Shown here one piece after another: positions 20,979-57,771 of a stretch of DNA of 64,000 nucleotides. Origin of the DNA: Candidatus Gastranaerophilales bacterium (GTDB lineage Bacteria > Cyanobacteriota > Vampirovibrionia > Gastranaerophilales > Gastranaerophilaceae). The stretch covers positions 1-64,000 of the forward strand of contig CALUVL010000009.1 in NCBI GenBank assembly GCA_944324225.1, read 5' to 3'. The position numbers and the translations under genes were made by a program. The notes beneath the pieces are model-generated. The model was not told where the DNA came from, ran no database searches, and saw nothing but the letters and a program-made list of their open reading frames with translations. Each line of letters begins with the position of its first letter. The first letter of the stretch is position 1.

Positions 20979-21944
20979 ATGGATATCTTATTTGTAATAG
21001 ACAGAATTGAACTAAAGTATTTTGAATTTAACAATCTTGTGACAAATTTTTGGATTATAAGAGAACTTATCCGGAATAATAACAATGTTTTTATAACAAC
21101 AATTGATAAACTTGGAATTAGCGGTGAGAAGGCATATTCTCACTGCTTTTCCGTTTTTGAAAATCATGGAAATATTCTCTATGACAGACAAGAAATAAAA
21201 CGTGACATAGAAACATTTCCGCTTGTAATGTTCAGAAATGATCCGCCTGTTGATTTGGATTATCTAAATGCAACTTACATTTTTGATTTTGTGGACAGAA
21301 GTAAAACGTTTGTAATGAATGAACCCCGTGCAATCAGAGATTTTAATGAAAAACTTCATACAATGTTGTTTTCTGAGCTGATGCCGGAGCATATTGTTAC
21401 ATCTTCTAAAAAAGATATTCTGGAATTTTTGAACGAATATAATGAAATCGTTCTGAAACCCCTTAACAGATGTTTTGGAGCTGGTGTTATGACTCTTAAG
21501 AAAGGTGACAAAAACACTGCAGTTATAATAAATGCCATGACAAATAGCGGCACTACTCTTGTTATGGTGCAAAGGTATTTGGAGAAGGCTAAATACGGAG
21601 ATAAAAGAGTGCTGTTTCTGGGAGATAAGGTTCTGCCCTATTGTGTGCAGAAGCTTCCGTCAAATGATGACTTTAAATTTAATGAACACTGTGATTCTAA
21701 TATAATTAAGGCTGTGTTGACGGAGGAAGAGATTGAAAACTTTGCACCTGTTGCTAAAAAGCTAAATTCTACAGGAATTTTTATGACAGGGCTTGATGTC
21801 ATAGACGGCAAAATTATAGAAATAAATGTGACCAGTCCGTGTTATTTTATTAAAGAAATTAACAATCACTTTGGTGTTGAGCTTGAAAAAGACATCACTA
21901 AATATATTTTGTCAAAAGTAGAGTCGTCAATTGCAGTTAGTTAA
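20979..21944 (+). CDS. gshB: glutathione synthetase-like ATP-grasp ligase
   Basis: The protein has 321 residues from ATG 20979, where AAGAGGA sits close upstream; the in-frame TTG at 20964 coincides with the predicted transcript start. It follows the prokaryotic GshB plan: an N-terminal domain with MFRNDPPVDLDYLNATYIFD, the linker MNEPRAIRDFNEKLHT, and an ATP-grasp domain with IVLKPLNRCFGAGVM, RVLFLGDKVLP and the metal-binding end GLDVIDGKIIEINVTSP. GshB joins glycine to gamma-glutamylcysteine. No gamma-glutamylcysteine synthetase gene lies nearby, so a different small amino-acid substrate is possible. The gene overlaps the convergent unknown gene by eight bases. Confidence 0.78.
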   Translation: MDILFVIDRIELKYFEFNNLVTNFWIIRELIRNNNNVFITTIDKLGISGEKAYSHCFSVFENHGNILYDRQEIKRDIETFPLVMFRNDPPVDLDYLNATYIFDFVDRSKTFVMNEPRAIRDFNEKLHTMLFSELMPEHIVTSSKKDILEFLNEYNEIVLKPLNRCFGAGVMTLKKGDKNTAVIINAMTNSGTTLVMVQRYLEKAKYGDKRVLFLGDKVLPYCVQKLPSNDDFKFNEHCDSNIIKAVLTEEEIENFAPVAKKLNSTGIFMTGLDVIDGKIIEINVTSPCYFIKEINNHFGVELEKDITKYILSKVESSIAVS

Positions 21945-22956
21945 TTTTTTTTGCAACTCCGCCGATATCAATAATTTTTACAATAGCCTTCCCTTTTTCA
22001 TCAGTTCCGATTACGGCATTATTTTTGTGAAGATCATAGTGTGTAAGTCCGGAGTTTTCAAGTTCAGATTGCAGATATTCAATAATAATTTCTTCCTTTG
22101 GGCGAGGAACATATAAACCTTTTGAATTAGTTGCACCAGGTTGAATATTTCGGTCTATAAGATCCATAACTTCAATGCCTGTTTGTTTTTGAAAATCATA
22201 ATAAAAATCCTGAAGAGTTTTGTAGCTTGGCTTAAAGTGTACTATAGGGCTTATATATTTGGGCGGTGTTGCATATTCTGATGCTATATAGTTACCTTTG
22301 ATATCGCCCCAGTATATTTTTGAAATATATTTGCAGTTTATTTCGTTTATATTGAGCCAGTGTGCAGTTTCAGCTTTTACGCCGTTGTAGTTTGAATCCA
22401 ATACATCAGGATTTGTTTTTTTGAATGTTTTGATAAATAATCTTTCAAGGGTTGGATTTTGTCCTTTTTCTCTGAGTACATAGCCGCGGTTTATGTATTT
22501 CCCGAAAACCTTTCTTTTTTTGAAGTTTACAGAGTTTGTTTCAGGAATAATTCCGAAATGTCTTAAGGTTTTTGTTAAATATTTGGAAGCGTCTTTAAGA
22601 TTTCTGTTTTCTTTGTCATTGCCGTTTTTTGAGTAGTCTTTGCTGGTTTTAGGTGCATTGTAGGGTTTTAAATGTTTAACAGCAGCTCTAAATGCATGCA
22701 ACACTTTTTTGACAATAGCGTCTTTTTCGTTTTGTGATTTACCACGTAATTTTTCAAGCCAGTGCGGTGGAAGTGTGCCAGCTATCCAGTCATTGTCAGG
22801 ATTTTTTAAAAATACATCTTCAATTTCTTTTTGCGTTTCAACAAACTTTCTCGCAAAGATCTCTGTAGCTCCTGTAAAGGCAACATGTTTGGAGCTGTTG
22901 TAGGTGTTGTAATGATTATAACTGTTTTGAGCTGGGGTAGTAAAATGTATTTTCAT
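21937..22956 (-). CDS. unknown protein with FTG tag and kinase-like C-terminal motif
   Basis: This 339-residue protein is not recognised as a named family. The N-terminus is Asn/Tyr/Ser rich and carries the FTG tag at residues 27-29 (HVAFTG), like other unknown proteins here. The middle is basic. The last 36 residues contain HYDLHKNN (306-313) followed by KIIDIGG (327-333). This pair resembles the catalytic loop (H-x-D-x-x-x-x-N) and the metal-binding DFG of protein-kinase-like and aminoglycoside-phosphotransferase-like enzymes. No C-lobe follows, so activity is uncertain. There is no signal peptide or membrane segment. No ribosome binding site is visible; the promoter lies almost on the start codon. 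Confidence 0.65.
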   Translation of the reverse strand: MKIHFTTPAQNSYNHYNTYNSSKHVAFTGATEIFARKFVETQKEIEDVFLKNPDNDWIAGTLPPHWLEKLRGKSQNEKDAIVKKVLHAFRAAVKHLKPYNAPKTSKDYSKNGNDKENRNLKDASKYLTKTLRHFGIIPETNSVNFKKRKVFGKYINRGYVLREKGQNPTLERLFIKTFKKTNPDVLDSNYNGVKAETAHWLNINEINCKYISKIYWGDIKGNYIASEYATPPKYISPIVHFKPSYKTLQDFYYDFQKQTGIEVMDLIDRNIQPGATNSKGLYVPRPKEEIIIEYLQSELENSGLTHYDLHKNNAVIGTDEKGKAIVKIIDIGGVAKKIN

Positions 22957-37005: not shown

Positions 37006-38784
37006 ATGATTGAAAAGATTAATATAACAAGTGTAGACAAAAAAAATACCCCTGTGTGTATTAATAAAAAAACAGTAGAAAATCAGCCTTCATTTAAAGG
37101 TGGTATGGTTGATCTGCTTGTAAAAGGTGTTCAAAAATGTGAAGAACATCCGATGCTTAATGTTTCTGTTCTTGATTTGTCTACGGCAATTATACCCCGT
37201 ACTATTATTGAAACTACAGCCGGTTCAAATAAAAAAGATAAAGACGGCAAACCGATTGTTGATGAAAACGGCAAAAGAAAGCGCCAATTCAACTGGATAG
37301 GCGGTTTTGAAGCTTTAAGAAGAGAAGGATCCGGACTTCTTATAAATTGTATATTCCCGAGTTTTATCGTAATGGGTACCGGAACATTGTTTAACTGGCC
37401 GATTATGCGTAAGTTTGATAAAAACCTTATTAACAACTGGGCTAACGGCGAAGCTTATGACAAAATATTAAAATTCTATAAATCAGGCGAGCAGAATGAA
37501 GTGCATATGAAAGATTTCTTCAAACGTTCAATTCTGTCACTTGAAGGTGTTGACGGCAAAGCTTATGAAAAAGGCGGTGTGAAGTCTTTTGCAATGCTTC
37601 TTGCTGACAATCCTGAAGAAATAAAAGGTCTTAGTAATGTTGATGAGATAGTAAGCAAAATTCGTCTGAAAACAGATGCGGAAGATGCAATAAATATTCT
37701 TGCGAAAGCTGCAAATGACGGTAATTATGAGAATACAAAAAAAGCTTACAGAAAGCTTGTTGATCTTACTCACATTTCTGAAAATATCAGATTTGCCGGC
37801 GAAGAAGGTTTTCTTGGCAACAACCTTTATTCCTTCTGTAAGGATACCCCAAAAGTTTTGCATGGCGCAAAGACACAGAGAATTTCAACAGCAGAAGAGC
37901 TTGGCGCATACTTTAAAAAGACTAAGAAACTGGTTAACTGGAAAAGTATTGGCGGACTCGGGCTTATTATTCCTCTTGCAATTTCCGCACAGCCTATAAA
38001 CAGATGGATTACACACAAAATTTCAGGACGCAAAGGTGCTCCGATTTATAACGACTACGACGAGAATAAAGAGTATAAAGAACCCACTAAAACTGAAAAA
38101 CTTCAGCTTTTAAAACAAAAAGTTATATCAATAAGTTCAATGCTCGGAGTCTGCGGACTCTCAATGATAATGGATAAGCCGAGCCTCAAGTCATTGTTAC
38201 AGTTCAAAGGCTTGTTCCCGACAATGGATCAGGCAAGAATTATATCAACTGCAACATTTGCAAGCCGTATGGGGGCTGCGGAAGATAAAAATGAACTTAA
38301 AGAATCTACAATCAGAGATATTGCAACCTTCTCAAGCTTCTATTTCCTCGGAGATTACGCTGCAAAAGGTATTGCATCATTTATTGAATCACGAAGCAAA
38401 GGTAAAGTAACATTAATAAACAGATTGAAGAAACTTGATGATAACGCAAATGTATTCCAGAAATTCTGGAACTGGGCAAAACATACTTCGCTTAAATCAA
38501 CGGATGAGCTTGCAACTGCTCATGACAAGCGTTTAAGAACAATTTGCCAGCTTGGCAATATTGCATTCTCATTAATATCTCTCGGGTTGTTTATACCACT
38601 TTATACAAGAACTCAGGCACAAAAAAATAAGGCAAAAGATGATCTTGCGAAAATGGATGCATCAAATTCGAATACCACAACCGGCGGCGCCGGTACGGGG
38701 GCTGCGGCATCGTCGTCAAATTTAAGTATGACAGGTGCAGCGGCCGCAAATTCGACTTTCAAAAAAGCATTTATGAATTCGTAA
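37006..38784 (+). CDS. large unknown protein with FKG tag, paralogue 1
   Basis: This 592-residue protein is not recognised. The first 28 residues are polar, followed by the tag PSFKG (F30-K31-G32). The next conserved block is SVLDLSTAIIPRTIIETT. Hydrophobic segments include LLINCIFPSFIVMGTGTLF, IGGLGLIIPLAISAQPIN and LGNIAFSLISLGLFIPLY, so it is probably membrane-associated. A block near residues 400-465 (KGLFPTMDQ, then EDKNELKESTIRDIATF and LGDYAAKG) is closely matched by the next gene. The tail is Ala/Ser/Thr/Gly rich. It appears to be the first gene of a two-gene operon with its paralogue, ten bases apart. Confidence 0.75.
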   Translation: MIEKINITSVDKKNTPVCINKKTVENQPSFKGGMVDLLVKGVQKCEEHPMLNVSVLDLSTAIIPRTIIETTAGSNKKDKDGKPIVDENGKRKRQFNWIGGFEALRREGSGLLINCIFPSFIVMGTGTLFNWPIMRKFDKNLINNWANGEAYDKILKFYKSGEQNEVHMKDFFKRSILSLEGVDGKAYEKGGVKSFAMLLADNPEEIKGLSNVDEIVSKIRLKTDAEDAINILAKAANDGNYENTKKAYRKLVDLTHISENIRFAGEEGFLGNNLYSFCKDTPKVLHGAKTQRISTAEELGAYFKKTKKLVNWKSIGGLGLIIPLAISAQPINRWITHKISGRKGAPIYNDYDENKEYKEPTKTEKLQLLKQKVISISSMLGVCGLSMIMDKPSLKSLLQFKGLFPTMDQARIISTATFASRMGAAEDKNELKESTIRDIATFSSFYFLGDYAAKGIASFIESRSKGKVTLINRLKKLDDNANVFQKFWNWAKHTSLKSTDELATAHDKRLRTICQLGNIAFSLISLGLFIPLYTRTQAQKNKAKDDLAKMDASNSNTTTGGAGTGAAASSSNLSMTGAAAANSTFKKAFMNS

Positions 38785-38794
38785 GGAGAAAATT

Positions 38795-40456
38795 ATGAAG
38801 ATACTGGAAACCCCGCAATTACAAACTCAATTAAGAAACAAAAAGGATCAACAACAAAATATACATTTTAAAGGCGCAGGCGATGCAATAAGTTTAGGAT
38901 TAAGATTTTTAGACACAAATCAGGCCTGGGGTGCAAATGCTGTTGATGTTGGGTCAATGGTTTTACCACGAACCACTGTTGATACTATAAACAGAGGTCC
39001 TGCTGCCGGACTTGAAACAGGACGTCGTGAAGCTTCCGGTACTATCAACCATTCCTTAATCGGCGTTTACGGATCTCTGGCTGCACTTGCTTTTTCTCTG
39101 GCACTTAATAAAAAATTTAATGTAAAAGCCGATAAGATTTTTGCAGATAACGAAAGTTTTGATATTATAGGCCGGTATTTCCATAATAATGTTCAAAAGA
39201 ATGGCCGAGAAGGTGCTCTTGATGCTACATTAGAGAATGTGTTGAAAAATGTAACAACAAAAGTCAACGGTGACGACAAATCACTTTCTGAGCATGATGT
39301 TCAGGTTATTAAAGACAGGTTACTAAATGTGCTTACAAGTCCGGATGTTGATAAAGAAACAATACCGGATTCTACACGCAGGTATCTTGTAAATTATGTT
39401 ATGTCAGCAACAGGGGCTGAGTCAGACTTTACATTGAAAGGATTTAATAAAGAAACAACTTCTAACCTTTCAACTTTTATAGAAAATCTGTATAATATTT
39501 CAAAAACTTTGACTAAGGAAAACGTAATTAAAGAATTTGAGAACGCCGCTAAGTTTAGTGAAAATACATTTATCAATGCCATTAAAAAATTAAATAATCG
39601 CAGAACCATAGCTGGTATGGCAATTGCTTCCGGTATAGGGATGTCTATTCAGCCGATGAATATTTACCTCACCAAGAAAAAGACAGGAAGTGACGGATTT
39701 GTCGGAGTTGAAGGCCGTGAAAAAGATAAAAGTTTCGGATTTAAACTTTGGAAGCTTGCAGCTGCTGCTGTATTTGGAGGCGGGATTGTTGCTAATCTTG
39801 CAATGAAACAGGGCGGACTTTTGAAAAATATTCAATATAAAGGACTCGTTCCGACGATTAACCAGTTCAAACTTATTTACGGGCTTACTATTATGTCAAG
39901 ATTTATGGTTGCCCGTGATAAGGACGAACTCAGAGAATCCGTAGTTAAGGATGTTTTAGGATTCTTTAACTGGCTTGTACTCGGCAATTTCGTCGCAAAA
40001 GGTGTTGTACTTGCTCTTGATAAAGAAAAATCTCTTCTTAAAAATCCTGATGAAAAATCCTTCTTTAAGAAAAAACTTAAAACCCGTGATGAGGTTCTTG
40101 TTGAAGGATTGAAAAAAGCAAATATATCTTCTGTTTCAAAAGACGGCAAGGCTCTCAAGTTCTCTCAAATGCTAAAACTTCTGCCGGCATCTGAAACCGG
40201 TAAGGCTGTCGGCCGCCGTTTGAAGATTTTGAACCTTGCTCAGGTAGCCGGATACCTCTACTCAGGACTTGTCCTCGGTATAGGTATTCCAAAACTTAAT
40301 ATTTATATGACAAATAAATCTGAAGCTAAACGTAAGGCCAGATTAGCTGCTAAGAAAACTGCAGAAGCAAATCAACAAACCGTTCTGTCTAGTAACACTA
40401 CTCCGGTTATACCTGAATTAAAGCAGCCTACGATGAATGATTTTCTAAAAAAATAA
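38795..40456 (+). CDS. large unknown protein with FKG tag, paralogue 2
   Basis: The 553 residues share architecture with the preceding gene: a polar, Gln-rich leader ending in NIHFKG (F25-K26-G27), then NAVDVGSMVLPRTTVDTI, a hydrophobic segment (YGSLAALAFSLAL), a long helical middle, IGMSIQPMNIY, and the conserved KGLVPTINQ, RDKDELRESVVKD and LGNFVAKG block. It ends in a Lys/Ala-rich helix and a Thr/Pro tail. AAGGAG precedes the ATG. The two genes diverge enough to be old duplicates. Membrane association is likely; function is unknown. Confidence 0.75.
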   Translation: MKILETPQLQTQLRNKKDQQQNIHFKGAGDAISLGLRFLDTNQAWGANAVDVGSMVLPRTTVDTINRGPAAGLETGRREASGTINHSLIGVYGSLAALAFSLALNKKFNVKADKIFADNESFDIIGRYFHNNVQKNGREGALDATLENVLKNVTTKVNGDDKSLSEHDVQVIKDRLLNVLTSPDVDKETIPDSTRRYLVNYVMSATGAESDFTLKGFNKETTSNLSTFIENLYNISKTLTKENVIKEFENAAKFSENTFINAIKKLNNRRTIAGMAIASGIGMSIQPMNIYLTKKKTGSDGFVGVEGREKDKSFGFKLWKLAAAAVFGGGIVANLAMKQGGLLKNIQYKGLVPTINQFKLIYGLTIMSRFMVARDKDELRESVVKDVLGFFNWLVLGNFVAKGVVLALDKEKSLLKNPDEKSFFKKKLKTRDEVLVEGLKKANISSVSKDGKALKFSQMLKLLPASETGKAVGRRLKILNLAQVAGYLYSGLVLGIGIPKLNIYMTNKSEAKRKARLAAKKTAEANQQTVLSSNTTPVIPELKQPTMNDFLKK

Positions 40457-40462
40457 GTTTAA

Positions 40463-40495
40463 AAATCCGCAAGTTATGATTAAACTTGCGGATTT
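40463..40495. terminator. bidirectional terminator between convergent genes
   Basis: AAATCCGCAAGTT (40463-40475) pairs perfectly over 13 bp with AACTTGCGGATTT (40483-40495), loop seven bases. It sits between the FKG-protein operon and the end of the atp operon and is flanked by A/T tracts on both sides, so it can terminate both. Confidence 0.8.
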
Positions 40496-56841: not shown

Positions 56842-57771
56842 TTATTTTTCTTCAGAAATTGCGGTGAGCACATCAAAGTGCGAAAGTTTAGACTCTGTGC
56901 CGTCTGCGTCTTTTGCGTCAACGGAATTTCCTGAACCATTTGCTGTGTAGGTTGCATCAAGTTCGAAAGTGTTTCCTTCTGCTGTTTTGAATTTAGAAAT
57001 TGTGCTGCCGTCTCTTGTGAGAAGATAACTTGTTTCTCTTGCGGAACTTCCTTTCGGATATACTTCAACAAGAAGGTTATTTTCTCCGGCTGAAGTTAAG
57101 TGAAGTTCTTTTTCAATATATGAGTTGTTATCTCCTATTGTAGTTAAATCCATTTTTACAATATTTGAATTTTCGTCGTAACCGTTGTATTTAATCTGAT
57201 TTACAACACCATTTTTTTCATCTAGCCATGTTATCTGTGCAGGAATCATATTATAATCAAAAGCTTTTGTTGCAACATATTCTTCTGTCAGATTTTTTGA
57301 CTCAAGCCCCATAGCATCTATAAAGTTCAAAACGGTTTGAAGTTCTGCGGATTTGTGTGCATTATCAGGAACATAAACTATACCCGGTGAGAATGTTACA
57401 TTGCCGATATTTACTGTATCTCCGTTTTCAATTTTGTATCTTGGCATTCTCAGTGCCGGAGTTTTGTATGTTATACCGTTGATTATTGTATCAGGTTTGT
57501 TATCCGTGCTGTCGTTTGGTATTGGCGGATCAATATGATTCGGGTGATTGCAATCTTCTTCAGTAAATTCTTTTTCGCAGGATGTAAACAAAGCAGGTGT
57601 AAATGCTATTGCTGATGCCAGTGCTAAAGATTTTGCGGCATTCTTAAGCAGAACATCAGTTGCTTCACTTCTTTTTTGTTCTCCAGAAAAAGCAGGTTGA
57701 GAGTTTCTTTTTTGAAGTTTTATATTTCTGTTTTGAAAAACATTAAAAGCTGAAATTGGCTGAATATTCAT
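56842..57771 (-). CDS. unknown protein with FSG tag followed by a lipobox-like segment
   Basis: The 309-residue protein begins with a polar leader ending in QPAFSG (F28-S29-G30), the tag shared by other unknown proteins. A hydrophobic segment follows, SLALASAIAFTPALFTSC (about residues 48-65), whose end looks like a lipoprotein signal, with Cys65 as the modified residue and a charged, acidic sequence after it. The remainder is beta-rich and contains Gly/Asn/Thr-rich repeats of short strands (TFSPGIVYVPDN, GVVNQIKYNGYDEN, KTAEGNTFELDATYT), consistent with an extracytoplasmic domain. GGAG precedes ATG. Function unknown. Confidence 0.65.
   Translation of the reverse strand: MNIQPISAFNVFQNRNIKLQKRNSQPAFSGEQKRSEATDVLLKNAAKSLALASAIAFTPALFTSCEKEFTEEDCNHPNHIDPPIPNDSTDNKPDTIINGITYKTPALRMPRYKIENGDTVNIGNVTFSPGIVYVPDNAHKSAELQTVLNFIDAMGLESKNLTEEYVATKAFDYNMIPAQITWLDEKNGVVNQIKYNGYDENSNIVKMDLTTIGDNNSYIEKELHLTSAGENNLLVEVYPKGSSARETSYLLTRDGSTISKFKTAEGNTFELDATYTANGSGNSVDAKDADGTESKLSHFDVLTAISEEK

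Follow-up and report, generated by a model that had tools for sequence, protein, structure and literature searches.

Two tandem paralogues of Gastranaerophilales with a probable two-module membrane architecture: a lineage family and its possible assembly

Introduction

The contig CALUVL010000009.1 of Candidatus Gastranaerophilales bacterium (GenBank assembly GCA_944324225.1), of which we analysed positions 1 to 64,000 (called here the window), carries two large neighboring genes and raises a simple question: what are these two related proteins, how are they built and what could they do together? A preliminary description had presented them as tandem paralogues of a lineage family, sharing an N-terminal F-K-G tag, two sequence blocks and predicted membrane segments. 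We found no description in the literature of this family or of its leader.

The locus and its neighbors

Gene A (37006-38784, 592 aa) and gene B (38795-40456, 553 aa) were delimited from the list of open reading frames and supported by their orthologues and by the tree; like all the features given below for A and B, they lie on the forward strand. Their boundaries and the ten-base gap were exactly as previously described, and the ribosome-binding site of B, AGGAG (38784-38788, read from the sequence), overlaps the stop codon of A. On the 5' side are found the genes of an RsmE-type methyltransferase and of the CCA-adding enzyme, and on the 3' side the ATP synthase operon in convergent orientation. 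Between B and the convergent atpG, a perfect 13-bp inverted repeat with a loop of 7 (40463-40495, read from the sequence) is probably a terminator shared by the two genes; pattern scans for promoters and terminators gave nothing above chance and did not flag this repeat. The operon context was not retained as evidence on function because the neighbors vary among Gastranaerophilales, the pair adjoining cca and the ATP synthase in several genera and sitting elsewhere in others, and no gene neighbor of A and B pointed to a substrate.

Two old paralogues in a lineage family

A comparison of A with B by BLASTP gave an E of 2e-19, with 27% identity over 267 aa located mostly in the C-terminal half, and a search with A in its own genome returned A itself and B only. 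This similarity is far beyond chance and indicates that the two are true paralogues. In the maximum-likelihood tree they fall into two separate clades, A and B (support of 100/99 each), both of which hold members from the families f1, f6 and f7 of the order, a topology that places the A/B split before these families. Between close species, the dN/dS was 0.09-0.12 for A and 0.10-0.16 for B, versus 0.04-0.07 for the neighboring gene of the CCA enzyme and 0.01-0.02 for atpA. Values of about 0.1 indicate purifying selection on both proteins, in which the residues outside the motifs are fast-evolving. An old duplication with maintenance of both copies, as proposed from the low overall identity, is therefore well supported by the separate clades and by these ratios. 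The tree also contains a third, solitary clade, S. In some genera, members of clade S are preceded by a DtxR-type metal-dependent regulator, followed by a GDSL hydrolase, or both (L050 8665-11604; L117 4788-6963; L116 and L071), and the presence of this regulator hints at a metal regulation of clade S.

B-type homologues were detected in 259 of the 286 genomes of the order (E of 0.001 or better), so that nearly all of them carry the family and its attribution to this lineage holds. The named relatives that were fetched are Candidatus Gastranaerophilales MAGs, save one labelled uncultured cyanobacterium. A profile made from alignment A1 (40 members, including A and B) also gave strong matches in two further families of the class, f9 and f15, marginal matches or none in f8 and f10-f14, and no member in the other families of the phylum that were sampled nor in the photosynthetic cyanobacteria sampled. 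Searches of plasmid and phage records by tblastn gave no match, and a mobile or phage origin is thus unsupported. Gene A stands directly 5' of B almost everywhere in f1 and in the same order in f6, so the A-then-B tandem is kept across these two families; in f7 the genes are apart.

Two modules in each protein

Alignment-averaged hydropathy gave for both proteins seven hydrophobic segments, in corresponding positions and arranged as 3+1+3, which agrees with the membrane segments predicted earlier. The AlphaFold2 model of B, of moderate quality (mean pLDDT of 74.8, pTM of 0.66, from 14 sequences), has helices at the same positions; the model of A was poor (pLDDT of 61.3). The segments of B cover residues 44-62, 82-100, 271-289, 318-336, 355-373, 387-405 and 481-499: the first three form the N module, the last three the C module and the remaining one the inter-module linker. 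The first segment of the C module is weakly hydrophobic (0.67). Counting positive charges was uninformative for the topology because the flanks on both sides of most segments are basic.

A feature missed by the preliminary description is an internal duplication in each protein. The alignment of the N half with the C half by hhalign gave collinear matches at h1/h2 (E of 2.5e-5) and at h3 (E of 2.2e-5). As controls, the C columns were permuted inside 7-column windows, which keeps the hydrophobic segments in place: the best of 40 such shuffles reached 2.3e-3, with a median of 0.18, and the reversed profile 0.087. Because the real values of about 2e-5 beat all these controls, A and B very probably consist each of two homologous membrane modules, which is new here. 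The model of the N half also scores on C-type modules in many members.

The N module starts with the leader, NQPSFKG in A (37081-37101; F conserved in 39/40 and G in 36/40 members of A1) and NIHFKG in B (38858-38875), which is the common tag noted previously. It is followed by the PRT block, IIPRTIIET inside h1 of A (37189-37215) and VLPRTTVDT in h1 of B (38924-38986). The block had been reported in both proteins, and rightly so; its pattern, given as starting with [LM]xPRT, does not fit and should read [VI][LI]PRT[TI][VI][DE]T. Before h2 stand FEALRREGSG in A (37306-37335) and ETGRRE in B (39014-39031), the first E of the latter being invariant in 40/40 members. In B, h2 (39038-39094) precedes a soluble insert (39110-39565) that the AlphaFold2 model predicts as mostly helical with two short hairpins. 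The third segment ends in QPIN in A (37945-38001), as part of a QPxNxxxT motif, and contains IQPMNIYLTKKKTG in B (39605-39688), where N and T are invariant in 40/40 members. According to hydropathy, the inter-module linkers are hydrophobic in both proteins (38113-38169 in A and 39746-39802 in B). Then come the starts of the C modules, FKGLFPT...DKNELKES...KG in A (38203-38370, with an internal leader and h1/h2) and YKGLVPT...DKDELRES...KG in B (39836-40003), and both fit the C-terminal block first described, in the form KG[LV]xPT...DKxEL[RK]ES...KG. The last segment of B (40235-40291) has LGIGIP followed by NxxxT. Finally, alignment and motif counts delimit the C-terminal tail motifs FKKAFMNS in A (38758-38781) and TMNDFLKK in B (40430-40453); an ending like that of B, QPTMAGFLKR, also occurs in a distant paralogue of the same genome (L111).

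Across A1, conservation is strongest at charged and polar residues that lie inside the hydrophobic segments or flank them. In the N module of B these conserved positions are F-x-G, D51, P58-R59, E74 and R78-E79, then, after an insert of ~150 aa, Q286, N289 and T293; in the C module they are F/Y-K-G, R369, E378, E381, G495, P499 and T506. The signature of the family, present in order in A and B, reads F-x-G leader, PRT...RRE, QPxNxxxTKK, SR...ELRE and IPxxNxxxT.

Split, permuted and further members

Other forms missed by the preliminary description are split genes and further divergent paralogues. In genomes of f9 and f15 (L052, L053, L054, L055, L083, L084 and L086), the two modules are encoded by distinct genes, N next to C, several of these genomes having a second N+C pair on the opposite strand, and in genome G011 (L095) four consecutive reading frames are ordered N, C, N, C with overlaps of 1-4 bases. 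In the split subunits that were read, nothing corresponds to the linker segment. The first 65 residues contain an F-x-G or FG in 11 of 13 split N and 9 of 13 split C subunits, versus 27% of other proteins. As the split modules usually have each their own leader, the most likely reading of the internal KG[LV]xPT block in the two fused proteins is that it is the leader opening the C module; in A, this module start corresponds to the free N-terminus of the split C subunits. The leader and this block, described at first as separate features, are two copies of one module-start motif. In some f9 and f15 genomes, a split N+C pair is convergent with, and not co-transcribed with, a cdaA-like diadenylate cyclase gene (DAC, E from 1e-37 to 4e-39; L052 11332-13924, also with lysA; L053 11562-12542; L083 10358-11398).

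At least three further members exist in the genome of A and B, for a total of five found. The first (L111 6653-8815, contig C3) is ordered N then C with an internal TSFTG, and the second (L112 7197-8771, contig C4) C then N with an internal NTSFEG. The third (L136 4284-5795, contig C2, internal NPSFTG) was found via the second, to which it matches with an E of about 1e-5, and does not match A or B directly. The module order is thus reversed in the C4 and C2 members, as read from their motifs. The C3 and C4 types are present in each of the 38 genomes sampled for them within the order; C4-type relatives of f9 and f15 (L164-L168) reach ~900-1050 aa, with long inserts in the second module. The C3 and C4 paralogues have polar inter-module linkers and no extra hydrophobic segment; the parity of membrane crossings is therefore not identical in all members, and either the modules of C3 and C4 are antiparallel or the linker of A and B does not cross the membrane.

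A possible heteromeric membrane complex

Together with their tandem arrangement, these features suggest that A and B may be two subunits of a pseudo-symmetric heteromeric complex of the inner membrane, the best reading found here, to which we give somewhat less than an even chance. The proteins would assemble through their modules, four per A-B pair, in the way SemiSWEET dimers compare with SWEET monomers, the extra hydrophobic segment would be a helix linking the two modules of a protein, and docking peptides that hold modules or partners could be provided by the F-x-G leaders and by the FLxK tails at the C-terminus. That the complex would be a channel or transporter, not an enzyme, is the weaker step; it is suggested by the position of conserved charged and polar residues within the hydrophobic segments or next to them (in B, D51, R59, E74, R78, E79, N289 and T293, then R369, E378, E381 and T506), and by the lack of an enzymatic motif. 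As to function, transport comes first at just under an even chance, a membrane scaffold or platform follows as a serious but less probable option, and an insertase or any other activity is rather unlikely.

Leaders, tails and a possible recruitment of partners

The leader has a wider distribution than the family. Among 1103 reading frames of at least 110 aa in 1.29 Mb of the same genome, an F-x-[GAS] preceded by a polar stretch is most frequent at residues 15-30, where 16 cases were seen and the density is 0.97 per 1000 positions versus about 0.26 elsewhere (first 60 positions versus the rest, Fisher p of 0.002). Three of the 16 belong to the family (A, B and the C3 member). The tag, although rare in this genome, is real. 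The F-K-G leader was correctly seen in A and B; it does not define the family alone, since it is also found on a minority of unrelated proteins. In the window, two such proteins without a Pfam match have the leaders HVAFTG (21937-22956, reverse strand) and QPAFSG (56842-57771, reverse strand), and about a dozen other proteins of the genome have a similar N-terminal leader. A 4-alpha-glucanotransferase of the same genome (L112 9813-11870, reverse strand; GH77, E of 3e-25) starts with the leader-like NNGIQHNHTTFGRRP, and the tag may thus be present on a cytoplasmic enzyme as well. The interpretation of the leader as a secretion signal was set aside because the fused proteins keep internal copies of it.

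These observations bear on a second, less probable explanation, in which the modules form a membrane scaffold or platform that anchors disordered tails, with F-x-G and FxxF[LM] motifs that would bring in partners, among them the unrelated proteins tagged with F-x-G. Several facts fit it: the conserved leaders and C-terminal motifs lie at the ends of tails that appear disordered (pLDDT below 50 for residues 1-30 and 527-547 in the model of B), the tail motif FxxF[LIVM] occurs in 24 of 46 members versus a mean of 3.7 for shuffled tails, the leader with its peak at residues 15-30 is shared by other proteins, and evolution is fast outside the motifs. However, the tagged proteins are few, most of them without known function, and conservation in the family is highest for charged and polar residues lying within or next to the hydrophobic segments, a pattern that fits a function in the membrane. 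These residues and the lack of enzyme motifs slightly favor a channel or transporter. An extended version, in which F-x-G would be a lineage-specific docking code and the superfamily modules (at least five proteins per genome) would bind the leaders of each other and of tagged cytoplasmic proteins to build a platform or compartment at the membrane that only Gastranaerophilales and Vampirovibrionia would have, is a long shot.

Family searches and comparison with known systems

No credible match to A or B was obtained in Pfam, NCBIfam, PHROGs, PADLOC, the PDB sequences or Foldseek, and the family matches no family in the libraries searched; the strong match to an annotated transporter or enzyme family that would have contradicted the preliminary description did not occur. 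Sub-threshold matches in Pfam, NCBIfam, PHROGs and PADLOC, such as Glyco_transf_10 (E of 0.0048) and SurE (E of 0.046), were rejected as noise, Pfam gave no recurring match on 40 diverse members, and the PADLOC models of anti-phage defence gave none among A, B and four relatives. Profile searches of PDB sequences returned only weak matches, mostly to de novo helical bundles. Foldseek found nothing at an E of 0.001 or better against PDB and viral models, which is not proof of a new fold, and the best VIA-align match (9g8j, Z of 5.6) is below the level that the tool calls meaningful; no match in these fold searches backed a transporter. This last structure, a membrane-integral pyrophosphatase, is like A and B a helical membrane protein and aligns over 160 residues, but with 8% identity, in a scattered alignment and with a Z in the range the tool calls common, and no relation is claimed.

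The closest parallel in construction is provided by SWEET and SemiSWEET, which also have three-segment modules, either separate or fused via an extra helix into seven segments; A and B show the same 3+1+3 arrangement, apparently from module duplication. In contrast to SWEET and SemiSWEET, the modules of A and B have a much greater size, a soluble insert of ~150 aa, leaders of the F-x-G type and motifs of their own, and paralogues of the family are fused in both orders, some without a linker. The SWEET domains of Pfam, PF03083 and PF04193 (MtN3_slv/PQ-loop), have no match in A and B and none in the 40 members at an E of up to 0.1, among the best 25 of 31 weak families, and there was no SWEET chain among the Foldseek and VIA matches listed for the moderate model. 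By Pfam the family is not SWEET, and only its assembly is likened to that of SemiSWEET and SWEET. A second parallel is that of paired-subunit transporters, for example the heterodimeric SMR pairs, in which two paralogous membrane proteins are encoded in tandem. A and B resemble them as tandem paralogous membrane proteins that probably work together, and differ in size and motifs, the sequences having been compared through Pfam scans alone.

A known, ordinary transporter family that diverged past recognition by these searches would account for the transporter-like 3+1+3 architecture and could escape a fold model of moderate quality. It is nevertheless improbable, given the absence of a recurring Pfam match among 40 diverse members and of a PDB sequence match, and a best VIA Z (5.6) below the meaningful level. 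Less probable still is a membrane-protein insertase or translocase made of repeated modules, which the charged residues near the hydrophobic segments, the helical soluble insert and the presence of the family in nearly all genomes of the order would suit, but which is disfavored by the absence of a Pfam match to the YidC/Oxa1, SecDF or Tat families in 40 members (a single match to the SecDF head in one member, E of 0.03, being noise) and of a fold match by Foldseek or VIA-align with the moderate model.

Significance

The source of this locus is a non-photosynthetic cyanobacterium of the gut. In this widespread lineage, almost every genome spends several genes, five in the present case, on a superfamily that is unnamed in the libraries searched. 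Its modules, which are separate genes in more distant Vampirovibrionia, occur as single genes, split operons and fusions in both orders, and constitute a natural series for the construction of repeat membrane proteins. Finally, a short leader that was unexplained becomes a testable hypothesis, that of a module-start or docking motif.
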